A DNA stretch of 57,338 nt from Pirellulales bacterium (GTDB taxonomy: Bacteria > Planctomycetota > Planctomycetia > Pirellulales > JADZDJ01), in contig DATJYL010000048.1 of NCBI GenBank assembly GCA_035499655.1, forward strand, positions 1 to 57,338, in the 5' to 3' direction. The notes beneath the pieces were generated by a model. The model was not told the origin of the DNA, did not search any database, and was given only the letters and a program-made list of their open reading frames with translations. Position 1 is the stretch's first letter; each line of letters begins with the position of its first letter. A program made the position numbers and the translations under genes. This document shows, in pieces, positions 10,716 through 20,496 of this stretch.

Positions 10716-11963
10716 ATGAGGCGTTCGAAAATCGCTTCGAAAGATAACGTTAGCAAAATTCTGGAACGCGCGCTTGACGCCGGCGAGGGTCTGCTGCGGC
10801 TCACGCCCACGTGGGTGCCGCGCAGCTTTTTGCACCCAGGCAAGCGCATCAAACTGCATCCGGACGATTGGTATGCCTACGGCGCCCAGCGCGGCGGCAT
10901 TGACGAACGCTGGTTCGCCAGCACCACCGAAGCCGCCAACGAAGGCCGGCTGCCCGACGAAGGGTTAAGTTACGCAGCGTTTGGCGGCGAGCGATTCACG
11001 CTGCGCGATGCCGTGGCCGAGGCGGGAGCGCGGCTGATCGGCCGAGCGATGTTCGACAAATACAAACACTGGCCGGTGTACTCCAAATTCTTCGACAACA
11101 TGGGCCCCATTCCGCATCACATGCACCAGGGCTTCGAGCACGCCAAGCTCGTGGGCCAGGAAGGCAAGCCGGAAAGTTATTATTTCTGCCCGCAATACAA
11201 CAACTGCGACAATCATTTTGCGTACACCTTCATGGGCTTGGAGCCGGGCACGACGAAAGCCCAAGTGCGGCGGTGCCTGGAGAATTGGAACCAAGGGGAC
11301 AATGGCATTTTAGATTTGTCGCGGGCCTACCGGTTGAAGCGCGGCACGGGTTGGTTGATTCCGCCGGGGGTGCTGCACGCGCCGGGCTCGCTCTGCACGT
11401 ACGAGCCGCAATGGGGAAGCGACGTGTTCGGCATGTTTCAATCGATTGTCGAAGGGCGGTACGTGCCCTGGTCGCTGCTGGTGAAAGACATGCCCCAGGA
11501 AAAACACCACGATTTGGATTTCATCGTCAGCGAGCTCGATTGGGAACGCAACGTCGACACGCATTTCAAAGAACACAATTATTTGGAACCGATTGCGGAC
11601 AGCGCGAAATCGGGCTCAGGCTTCACCGACCGCTGGATTGTGTACGGCACAATCGACGGCGTGCAGCTGTTCAGCGCCAAGGAATTGACCGTGGAGCTCG
11701 GCGCGAAGTGTGTGCTGAAAGAACCCGGCGCCAGCGGTTGGATCACCGTACAAGGCAAGGGACGGATGGGGAAGCTGAATTTGCAAACCCCGGCGATGAT
11801 TCGCTTCGGCGAGGAAACCGAGGACGAAGTTTTCATTTCGCACGAAGCAGCGGCCCGCGGCGTGGAAATCGAAAACACCGGCAGCGAACCGCTCGTCGGG
11901 CTACGTTATTTCGGCCCCGACGTGCACGCCAATTTGCCGAAGGTGGGTGATCACACGAGATAA
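10716..11963 (+). CDS. Cupin-like protein of a sugar cluster (phosphomannose-isomerase-like)
   Basis: ATG 10716 has GGGGAGG at 10701-10707; the upstream extension of the frame lacks homology. The protein has 415 residues. PIPHHMHQGFEHAKL has the closely spaced His residues of a metal-binding cupin, and GTGWLIPPGVLHAPGS is the second cupin motif. The general look recalls type I phosphomannose isomerases, but I do not recognise a precise family. Its neighbours are a xylose-isomerase-like TIM barrel and a Gfo/Idh dehydrogenase, so a role in sugar or polyol metabolism is inferred. The stop codon is immediately followed by a REP repeat. Confidence 0.7.
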   Translation: MRRSKIASKDNVSKILERALDAGEGLLRLTPTWVPRSFLHPGKRIKLHPDDWYAYGAQRGGIDERWFASTTEAANEGRLPDEGLSYAAFGGERFTLRDAVAEAGARLIGRAMFDKYKHWPVYSKFFDNMGPIPHHMHQGFEHAKLVGQEGKPESYYFCPQYNNCDNHFAYTFMGLEPGTTKAQVRRCLENWNQGDNGILDLSRAYRLKRGTGWLIPPGVLHAPGSLCTYEPQWGSDVFGMFQSIVEGRYVPWSLLVKDMPQEKHHDLDFIVSELDWERNVDTHFKEHNYLEPIADSAKSGSGFTDRWIVYGTIDGVQLFSAKELTVELGAKCVLKEPGASGWITVQGKGRMGKLNLQTPAMIRFGEETEDEVFISHEAAARGVEIENTGSEPLVGLRYFGPDVHANLPKVGDHTR

Positions 11964-12073
11964 CCCAAGCCGACGGCTCCGCCGTCGAACGAATTGCAAA
12001 AAACATAACCATTTCAACCCCAAGCCGACGGCTCCGCCGTCGGATAACCGACGACCAAGTCGTCGGCTTGGGA
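11964..12073. repeat. REP/REPIN-like compound repeat, left of the RAYT gene
   Basis: A hairpin unit (GACGGCTCCGCCGTC after CCCAAGCC) is followed by an A-rich spacer (GAATTGCAAAAAACATAACC). A pair of hairpins in opposite orientation comes next (GACGGC-TCC-GCCGTC, then CCGACGAC-CAA-GTCGTCGG), bounded by outer arms CCCAAGCCGAC and GTCGGCTTGGG. It starts directly after the stop codon of the cupin gene. It is repeated almost identically at 12667-12775. Confidence 0.85.
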
Positions 12074-12103
12074 ATGAAATTGAATCCTCAATGGAATATA
12101 TCC

Positions 12104-12664
12104 ATGCCCAAATGGTGGCTCATCACCTGGACGACTTACGGCTCCTGGCTGCCGGGCGATCCACGTGGATTTCGCACTTGGCGAAAGCGCGAGTATGTGC
12201 CGCCGCCCAAACGGTACGCGGCTCCCGGAGAACCCGTTTACAATCCATCGGTTTATGCCGAGAGGCGTCGTATTGCACAGCAAACAACCGCCGCATCGAT
12301 TTCGTTAACCAAGCGGCAACAACTGTGCGTACTCAATGCGACAGTCGACGAAATCCGACAGATGGATGTAGTGCCAGCCATCATTTCCATCGGGACAACA
12401 CACGTGCACTGGCTGGCGCAATTTGAACGGCTTTCAATTCGCTTGGCAGTCGGTCGTATCAAAGCAAAGGCGACCCTCTCGCTAAGAGAGATTGGCTTTG
12501 ACGGTAAGCGACCCTGGACCAAAAACTGCCACATGGAATCGAAACAAACCGACGACGAATTTCATGGTGCCTTTCGATACATACACCATCACGTACATGA
12601 AAATTGCCTAATCCATGTCTGGCCGAGCTTTGCGGACATTATCGACGAGATCTTAAACTCGTAA
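12104..12664 (+). CDS. REP-associated tyrosine transposase (RAYT, IS200/IS605 Y1 superfamily)
   Basis: This protein of 186 residues begins [19 protein letters not shown], the N-terminal signature of TnpA-like Y1 proteins. The HUH metal motif is visible as HVHWL in [24 protein letters not shown] near the C-terminus carries the probable nucleophilic Tyr, in the position of the YIH.NP motif of RAYTs. RAYTs cut and join single-stranded REP hairpins and are normally single-copy genes framed by REPs. Here the gene is flanked on both sides by nearly identical REP/REPIN arrays (11964-12073, 12667-12775). It lies between two sugar-metabolism genes on the same strand. No disruption is visible. Confidence 0.87.
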
Positions 12665-12666
12665 TG

Positions 12667-12775
12667 CCCAAGCCGACGGCTCCGCCGTCGAACGAATTGC
12701 AAAAAAACATAACCATCCCAACCCCAAGCCGACGGCTCCGCCGTCGAATAACCGACGACCAAGTCGTCGGCTTGG
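12667..12775. repeat. REP/REPIN-like compound repeat, right of the RAYT gene
   Basis: It has the same arrangement as 11964-12073: single hairpin, A-rich spacer, then paired opposing hairpins with outer arms CCAAGCCGAC/GTCGGCTTGG. Only a handful of differences are visible, including one extra A in the spacer. The two copies are direct repeats framing the RAYT gene. Confidence 0.85.
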
Positions 12776-12807: not shown

Positions 12808-13837
<1,030 letters not shown>

Positions 13838-13839
<2 letters not shown>

Positions 13840-13871
13840 TGACGAATGTCTAATGTCTAATGAATGACGAA
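13838..13871 (+). repeat. Left arm of the inverted repeat around S23 gene 1
   Basis: It is built from the words AATGACGAATG, TCTAATG (twice) and AATGACGAA. It is the reverse complement of 14271-14297 apart from one extra TCTAATG unit. It overlaps the stop codon of the isomerase gene and supplies the start codon and first codons of the S23 gene. Confidence 0.85.
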
Positions 13872-14255
13872 GTACAAATGTCGAACGATGGCCAGCCACA
13901 ACAGCGCTCAAAATATGATCTCGAAGAACGAACCGCTAAGTTCGGCGAATCGGTGGTTCGCTTCGTTAAAGGCATTCAATTGACAGCGGTCACCAATCCA
14001 ATTATCGGTCAACTAGTTCGTAGTGCGACAAGCATCGGGGCCAACTACTGCGAGGCCGACGATGCCGGCTCTCGAAAAGAATTTCTATATCGCATCAGCG
14101 TTTGCAAACGAGAAGCTCGCGAAACAAAGCATTGGCTTCGAATGCTAGTCGCCGCTCTGCCGGAATTGAAAGCCAATGCACGCACATTGTGGGTTGAGGC
14201 GAAGGAATTACACCTTATCTTTGCCGCCATTTTCCGCGCCAAGACAAAGAAATGA
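13860..14255 (+). CDS. Four-helix-bundle protein, S23/Avd family (copy 1)
   Basis: This protein of 131 residues belongs to the family that includes 23S rRNA intervening-sequence proteins and the Avd accessory protein of diversity-generating retroelements. Diagnostic blocks are NPIIGQLVRSATSIGANYCE, AGSRKEFLYRISVCKREA and KHWLRMLVAALPE. The start MNDEVQMSNDG is encoded inside the flanking repeat; the native start may be this ATG or ATG 13878. There is no reverse transcriptase, template repeat or rRNA nearby. The molecular function of such stand-alone copies is not established. Confidence 0.88.
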   Translation: MNDEVQMSNDGQPQQRSKYDLEERTAKFGESVVRFVKGIQLTAVTNPIIGQLVRSATSIGANYCEADDAGSRKEFLYRISVCKREARETKHWLRMLVAALPELKANARTLWVEAKELHLIFAAIFRAKTKK

Positions 14256-19103: not shown

Positions 19104-20258
19104 ATGTCGCCGCCAAACTTTATTTTCGTCACCTGCCAATGCGGCGCGGAAGCCGCCGTGAAAGCGGAAATCGCCCGTAAGTGGCCGGCCTTTCGGTTCG
19201 CATTCTCTCGGCCCGGTTTTCTCACGTTCAAAATCCCGCCGGGCGCGGCGCTGGCCGACGATTTTGATTTGCACAGCGCCTTCGCCCGGGCCTATGGTTT
19301 TTCGTTAGGCAAAGCGGATGGCGAGACCCTCGACGAACGCGCTCGCCAGGTGTGGCAGTTGGCCGCCGAGCGCGAGTTTGAAGTGCTGCACGTTTGGCAG
19401 CGCGATTTGCACGAGCCGGGCTATCGCGGTTACGAACCGGGTTTGACCGAAGCCGCCACGCAGGCCGATTCCGCAATTCGCGCGCAGGGCGCTGAGCGAT
19501 CGGCGCAGGAATTGTCGACGCCCGGTGAAAAATTAACGCCTCCATCCGCTAGCGGTTTAGCAAGCGCCTCGAGCGGTTTAGCGGTCGTCGTTAAAAAGGC
19601 GCGGCATTATGAGCCGCCGAACTCCGCGCGCGCCACTCAGCTCGTGCTCGATTGCGTCATCGTCGAACCCAATCAATGGTGGATCGGTTATCATCGGGCG
19701 AGTTCCATTTGCTCGCGCTGGCCCGGCGGAATGTTTCCGCTGGAATTGCCCGCCGATGCGGTTTCGCGGGCATATTTGAAAATGGAAGAAGCGCTGGCCT
19801 GGTCGCGCATGCCGCTGAAAGCCGGCGACGTGTGGGCGGAAATTGGCAGCGCGCCCGGCGGAGCCAGTCAGGCGCTGCTACGCCACAGCCTGAAAGTGAT
19901 CGGCATCGATCCGGCCGACATGGACCAGCACGTGCTGGCAAATCCCCATTTCACGCATTGGAAAAAACGGGGCGCCGACATCCGCCGCCGCGAATTTCGC
20001 AAAGTGAAATATTTGGCCGCCGACATCAACGTCGCGCCGGCATACACGCTTGATACCGTCGAAGCCATTGTCACGCACCCGGAAGTCAAAATTCAGGGGC
20101 TACTGTTGACGCTGAAGCTGCTCGATTGGAAATTGGCCGAACAACTTCCGGAATTTCTCGACCGAATTCGCTCCTGGGGCTACAGCCACGTCCGCGCCCG
20201 CCAACTGCACCACAACCGGCAGGAAGTGTGCGTGGCGGCGCGGCGAAAGGAAAAGTAG
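19104..20258 (+). CDS. RlmM-like SAM-dependent rRNA 2'-O-methyltransferase
   Basis: This protein of 384 residues has an N-terminal THUMP-like region (FIFVTCQCGAEAAVKAEI) and a C-terminal FtsJ/RrmJ-type domain. The SAM motif is WAEIGSAPGGASQALL, followed by VIGIDPADMD. Late segments ICSRWPGGMFPLELP and ALAWSRMPLKAGD resemble RlmM, which methylates 23S rRNA C2498 (E. coli numbering). The exact target is not certain from sequence. The last about 15 codons (AARRKEK stop) are duplicated about 169 bases downstream within a REP cluster. Confidence 0.85.
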   Translation: MSPPNFIFVTCQCGAEAAVKAEIARKWPAFRFAFSRPGFLTFKIPPGAALADDFDLHSAFARAYGFSLGKADGETLDERARQVWQLAAEREFEVLHVWQRDLHEPGYRGYEPGLTEAATQADSAIRAQGAERSAQELSTPGEKLTPPSASGLASASSGLAVVVKKARHYEPPNSARATQLVLDCVIVEPNQWWIGYHRASSICSRWPGGMFPLELPADAVSRAYLKMEEALAWSRMPLKAGDVWAEIGSAPGGASQALLRHSLKVIGIDPADMDQHVLANPHFTHWKKRGADIRRREFRKVKYLAADINVAPAYTLDTVEAIVTHPEVKIQGLLLTLKLLDWKLAEQLPEFLDRIRSWGYSHVRARQLHHNRQEVCVAARRKEK

Positions 20259-20492
20259 CTGGCGCGGCCACCGTCCCAGCCGACGGCTTTGCCGTCGAAC
20301 GAATTACAAAAAAACATAACCATTTCAACACCAAGCCGACGGCTCTGCCGTCGCATACCGATGACCAAGTCGTCGGTGCCATAACCGCCAGAAAGTTTGC
20401 CTGGCGGCGCGGCGAAAAGAAAAGTAGTTGGCGCGGCCACCGCCCAAGCCGACGGCTTTGCCGTCGCATACCGACGACCAACTCGTCGGCCT
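20214..20492. repeat. REP cluster with a duplicated gene end
   Basis: Three REP-like hairpins are present (20276-20301, about 20329-20378, about 20442-20492) of the same family as around the RAYT gene, including the A-rich spacer ACAAAAAAACATAACC. The last about 45 bases of the upstream methyltransferase gene plus about 25 bases after it (20214-20283) recur at about 20382-20452 with roughly ten differences. The two stop codons (20256-20258 and 20425-20427) are 169 bases apart, so this is a diverged tandem duplication containing REPs. Confidence 0.85.
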
Positions 20493-20496
20493 GAAC

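Follow-up and report, generated by a model that had tools for sequence, protein, structure and literature searches.

A probable REPtron with CCAAG-footed repeats in a Pirellulales genome

The RAYT-like gene and its surroundings

The window, by which we mean the whole 57,338-nucleotide stretch of DNA analyzed, is contig C48 of a 4.54-Mb genome assembled in 244 contigs. The interval 11964-12775 holds an open reading frame encoding 186 amino acids (12104-12664, forward strand), bracketed by two 109-bp units that share 96% identity; the frame is annotated as a RAYT-like HUH-Tyr1 protein from the frame itself, motifs shared with homologues and an alignment with RayT. The upstream unit (11964-12072) and the downstream unit (12667-12775), delimited by sequence comparison, both lie on the forward strand and consist of a single REP hairpin, an A-rich spacer of ~32 bp and a REPIN, that is, two opposed hairpins with pairing outer arms. 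In the upstream unit, pattern search locates the REP monomer, a CCAAG foot followed by a CCGACGGC-TCC-GCCGTCG hairpin, at 11965-11987 (forward strand), and pattern search combined with folding places the REPIN at 12020-12072, where two inverted REPs (12020-12042, forward; 12049-12071, reverse) point their feet outward. The corresponding elements of the downstream unit, also identified by pattern search, are the REP monomer at 12668-12690 (forward strand) and the REPIN at 12724-12775. As a single strand, the unit folds with z = -8.1 relative to shuffles, and the window contains 10 matches to GACGGC-NNN-GCCGTC with at most one mismatch, where 0.5 would be expected.

The preliminary description of this DNA had reported an HVH-bearing Y1 transposase-like gene between two nearly identical units of about 110 bp, each with a hairpin, an A-rich spacer and two opposed hairpins with pairing outer arms, and all of these features are confirmed. 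Its inventory stopped at the two flanking units, but sequence comparison reveals a third composite unit on the forward strand at 20275-20376, 90% identical and without a RAYT, and a further REPIN at 20443-20493 that forms part of a local tandem duplication. The duplication (20213-20493) comprises a gene end and a REPIN; the stretch preceding the third unit recurs ahead of the further REPIN. Genome-wide, three composite units were found, all inside the window.

The RAYT site lies between two conserved genes on the forward strand. The upstream neighbor (10716-11963) has counterparts with 65-93% identity at the same site in genomes with and without the RAYT, and the downstream neighbor (12808-13839), likewise conserved at the site, is predicted from inspection by eye to be sugar isomerase/epimerase-like. 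Relatives of the latter come in two forms, one with identities to the window's gene from ~65% upward and the other with ~55-62%; the two forms cut across taxonomy, with gene order retained. After this gene, a small open reading frame (13860-14255) resembles, as judged by eye, a four-helix-bundle (S23-type) protein, and a similar frame, also judged by eye, follows the same gene in a locus from another order (L229).

The RAYT starts at the ATG at 12104, and its homologues begin at the same methionine. The protein contains an HUH motif (H100-V-H102), a conserved W138, a predicted catalytic Y159 and the signature YIHHH; in a sequence alignment, the first three match HMH, W94 and Y115 of Escherichia coli RayT. 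It is present in one copy in the genome. A Pfam search with the 186-amino acid protein gave no hit, and the match to the NCBIfam model REP_Tyr_transpos (NF047646) was weak (E = 0.0076, 16 bits against a cut-off of 80). The protein thus stays under the curated cut-offs of NF047646 and PF01797, although members of the wider family pass PF01797, and relatives within the order bridge it to Y1 proteins that do so. Its HUH identity is accordingly a prediction from the aligned motifs and these intermediates. A search of profiles of solved structures returned only IS608-type transposases, the right superfamily at a non-significant E of ~0.5, and an AlphaFold model built from three sequences was unusable (pLDDT 39.6), probably owing to the thin alignment. 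Between the RAYTs of two other genomes, G138 and G110, 25% of residues and 57% of fourfold sites differ, a pattern that would fit purifying selection.

Three IS200-like Y1 proteins are present in the same genome. The Y1 genes other than the RAYT encode different proteins, and most have their own flanking hairpins with ATAG, GTAG, AAAG or TCAG feet. One further Y1 gene (L033, on contig C80) has an internal stop codon and canonical GTAG hairpins on its flanks, and is possibly a decaying REPtron.

The REP family in the genome and across the order

A REP of this family consists of an unpaired 5' foot, (C)CCAAG, followed by CCGACNNC, a short loop and GNNGTCGG. The exact hairpin pattern occurs 33 times genome-wide and not once in the reversed control, and CCAAGCCGACG occurs 42 times versus 4 for its reversed control, so the population is modest, at about 33-40 copies. 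Such counts are lower bounds from exact matches, and many of the genomes compared are draft assemblies. The foot lies 5' in REP monomers; in REPINs, the outer arms pair because both feet point outward. REPINs occur beyond the units in the window, on contigs C29, C142, C153, C182 and C214; the dispersed hairpins and REPIN pairing that the preliminary description proposed to count are found. Several REPs sit just 3' of stop codons.

The hairpin singled out in that description, GACGGC-TCC-GCCGTC, is present but is one of several stem variants with differing inner base pairs. The two inner stem positions read GA, GG, GC, CG or AA, and 32 of the 33 copies have Watson-Crick or G-T pairs there, in five different combinations; in matches from other genomes, pairing is seen in 9 of 40. 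Given that these positions vary and yet pair, it is structure and foot that are conserved, whereas the sequence of the stem drifts. The pattern itself fixes the foot, such that its conservation is partly built in, and the relevant contrast is with other genomes searched with the same pattern. The recognition tag, which the preliminary description overlooked, is likely to be the unpaired CCAAG foot rather than the stem. Identity with CGTC-REPs was considered, as the stem ends in GTCG, and was dropped since the conserved unpaired tag is CCAAG.

Four of the order's 396 genomes contain the protein clade (G000, the genome studied here, G138, G110 and G029, with 100, 51, 50 and 42% identity, respectively). 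The pattern CCAAGCCGACNNC...GNNGTCG has 33, 14 and 8 matches in the first three and at most 4 in other genomes. In G029, one stem pair is changed (CCGAC to CCGGC), and the corresponding pattern CCAAGCCGGCNNC...GNNGCCG, which was chosen after the REPIN beside the G029 gene had been seen, yields 61 matches there and at most 6 in other genomes; this stem variant is that of the REPIN adjoining G029's own RAYT. On the better pattern for each, the four RAYT genomes hold the order's largest CCAAG-hairpin populations (33, 14, 8 and 61). Their joint placement in the top five of 396 would have a chance probability of ~5e-9, by arithmetic that ignores phylogeny. Besides the RAYT carriers, noticeable numbers of real hairpins (4 + 6 = 10) are seen solely in G060, where no protein match was obtained at E <= 1e-6. 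The contrast extends to close relatives: within the same genus, a genome with the protein has 33 hairpins and one without it has 2, and in genus g69 the carriers have 14 and 8 and a genome without the protein, 58% complete, has none.

For two clade members from another order, sampling 15% of the genome turned up cognate hairpins in small number or not at all; a large REP population is thus not required for the gene to persist. In the G467 sample (L264-L283, L304-L323), 28 hairpins in 0.8 Mb are preceded by AACGC; these possibly represent another REP family, similar to the hairpins with an AACG foot that adjoin Y1 genes in L079, L081 and L083.

The conserved locus and its history

In all four genomes of the order, the RAYT is flanked by the same two genes. 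A search for related loci with the single protein as the query found none, and one with the protein alignment retrieved two contigs. A class-wide profile search detected three more members of the clade, with 44-48% identity, in another order; they too lie between the same genes and have CCAAG or CTAAG palindromes alongside. All seven clade members found in the two orders therefore occupy one site in the same orientation, with hairpins of the same foot type alongside, and they form a single clade relative to the outgroups used (support 100/100).

How the gene came to reside at this site is a question of history rather than function, and either answer is compatible with the RAYT/REPIN explanation. 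The gene could have been gained there repeatedly, either by site-specific insertion or by horizontal transfer accompanied by recombination within the genes on either side, or it could have been inherited from the class ancestor and lost many times. The RAYT tree is star-like and out of step with taxonomy, divergence within the order (42-52%) being no smaller than that between orders (44-48%), and on the tree of a neighbor gene about five changes are needed to account for RAYT presence. At the site, the gap measures 28 and 52 bp in two of the genomes that lack the RAYT, the empty 52-bp one being that of the sister genome G001. The RAYT has a GC3 of 0.58 versus 0.72-0.75 in the neighboring genes, a difference that speaks for repeated gain but would fit either late gain or weak codon selection. 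Against repeated gain stand the site and orientation shared by two orders whose REPs have diverged, as well as the REP pair that G060 keeps at the syntenic site in the absence of the RAYT, a scar suggesting that losses happen. On balance, we regard repeated gain as plausible, at somewhat less than an even chance.

Comparison with G001 revealed no mobility event. At the eight REP sites examined, G001 has no intact REP, but the intergenic DNA has diverged so far that neither insertion nor loss can be dated, and the two are inseparable there. At the site matching one on contig C224 of our genome, this sister without a RAYT contains AACCAACGACAGGTAGCCGGCATGG (L218), a possible remnant of a decayed REP.

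A likely REPtron and its predicted guide motif

We consider it likely that the locus is a REPtron, in which a domesticated HUH tyrosine transposase (RAYT/TnpA-REP), present in one copy, is partnered by the REPs and REPINs cognate to it. The architecture of the locus, the single copy of the gene, the dispersed cognate hairpins, the order-wide co-occurrence of clade and hairpins, the compensated stem changes and the conserved site all support this reading, which the preliminary description had already favored. Recognition, cleavage and copying by the enzyme would then proceed as follows. When the DNA is single-stranded, probably as lagging-strand template, a REP would fold into an 8-bp hairpin; its 5' foot, CCAAG, would stay unpaired and serve as the guide, with CAAG standing where GTAG would otherwise be. 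Foot and hairpin together would be read by the enzyme, which would nick nearby single-stranded DNA via Tyr159 and rejoin it, with occasional copying of a REP or REPIN into a new intergenic site, and the RAYT gene itself would not hop but stay fixed at one chromosomal site. Weighing against a REPtron are the protein's scores under the family cut-offs, the foot other than GTAG, the small REP population, the scarcity of cognate hairpins in the genome samples of the two clade members from another order and the lack of any mobility event in the comparison with G001.

An ordinary mobile element of the IS200/IS605 kind, with REP-like terminal hairpins and with the dispersed hairpins as decayed ends of past insertions, would share the HUH-Tyr chemistry, the hairpins on both sides and the near identity of the flanking units, and the genome does hold IS200-like proteins. 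Such an element would be expected to leave near-identical mobile copies, but the gene is single-copy, its seven relatives are not scattered, the hairpins elsewhere stand alone or as REPINs with no gene match, and on the tree the protein falls outside the group of IS200-like proteins from the same genome; we therefore find this explanation very improbable. Hardly more probable is the notion that the dispersed hairpins are host terminators or mRNA stabilizers unrelated to a RAYT that merely adjoins some of them. The REPs directly after stop codons would suit such a role, and REPs elsewhere work as RNA hairpins according to the literature; yet, within the order, sizeable CCAAG-hairpin populations accompany the RAYT clade, the stem variant of G029 is that of the REPIN next to its own RAYT, and a terminator has no need of a conserved unpaired foot.

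Read as a REPtron, the system fits the accepted picture in which single-copy inherited RAYTs maintain REPINs (PMC8049555). The proposal that it widens the known range is not supported: REPs, RAYTs and class 3 TnpA-Y1 proteins have already been reported in Planctomycetes (PMC3733652, PMC6006769). With the E. coli REPtron and the Pseudomonas REPINs, it shares a single-copy HUH-Tyr protein, flanking cognate REPs/REPINs with a conserved unpaired 5' tag and a dispersed intergenic family; it differs in the CAAG tag, the size of the REP population, an N-terminal segment of 14 residues and the scores under the NCBIfam/Pfam cut-offs. In the same phylum, Rhodopirellula baltica has REPs as well as genes for tyrosine transposases that are bordered by repeats (Di Nocera et al. 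2013, PMC3733652), but its REPs belong to the GTAG superfamily, and a CCAAG family does not appear in the text consulted. TIRtrons/TIRYTs (PMC3733652) resemble our locus in that long palindromes border RAYT-like genes, but the flanks here are direct repeats of a REP plus a REPIN, with a tagged, dispersed hairpin family. Class 3 TnpA-Y1 proteins, which occur mainly in Planctomycetes (Quentin et al. 2018, PMC6006769), have extended N-terminal conservation and REPtron-like atypical hairpins in common with our system, but combine a CnGA foot with a Y----Q signature, in contrast to CAAG with YIHHH. The canonical class 2 foot, GTAG (GT[AG]G), is absent, and atypical feet are known elsewhere; by the published descriptions, the clade fits neither class 2, with its GT[AG]G foot, nor class 3, with its CnGA foot. 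What is new here is a predicted CAAG guide replacing GTAG, a clade under the Pfam/NCBIfam cut-offs, guide motifs that track RAYT clades and a fixed locus.

GTAG is the recognition and guide element for enzymes of E. coli, Stenotrophomonas and Marinomonas (PMC8266576) and, by analogy, the CCAAG foot is predicted to be the guide here. On the order's Y1 protein tree, part of which was scored with feet assigned by visual inspection of the hairpins beside the genes, feet group by clade, with CAAG in the clade of the 186-amino acid protein and CGAG/AGAG, AAAG and AACG in others; relatives of our protein have CCAAG or CTAAG hairpins adjoining the gene. We tentatively suggest that one RAYT lineage has been kept at a single operon-internal site across two planctomycete orders while the protein, its guide motif and the stems of its REPs diversified in concert.

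The host role of RAYTs and the reading of the REP tag have been studied almost solely with GTAG enzymes. The present clade, with its different guide, its fixed site and its natural presence or absence among sister genomes, offers a clean comparative setting for both, in which the REP population varies with the presence of the gene and the guide motif with the protein clade. If the suggested co-diversification is true, the planctomycete RAYT radiation would be a natural catalogue of guide specificities (CAAG, TAAG, CGAG, AAAG, AACG, ATAG and GTAG), from which one could read, and then test, the code by which the protein recognizes its guide.
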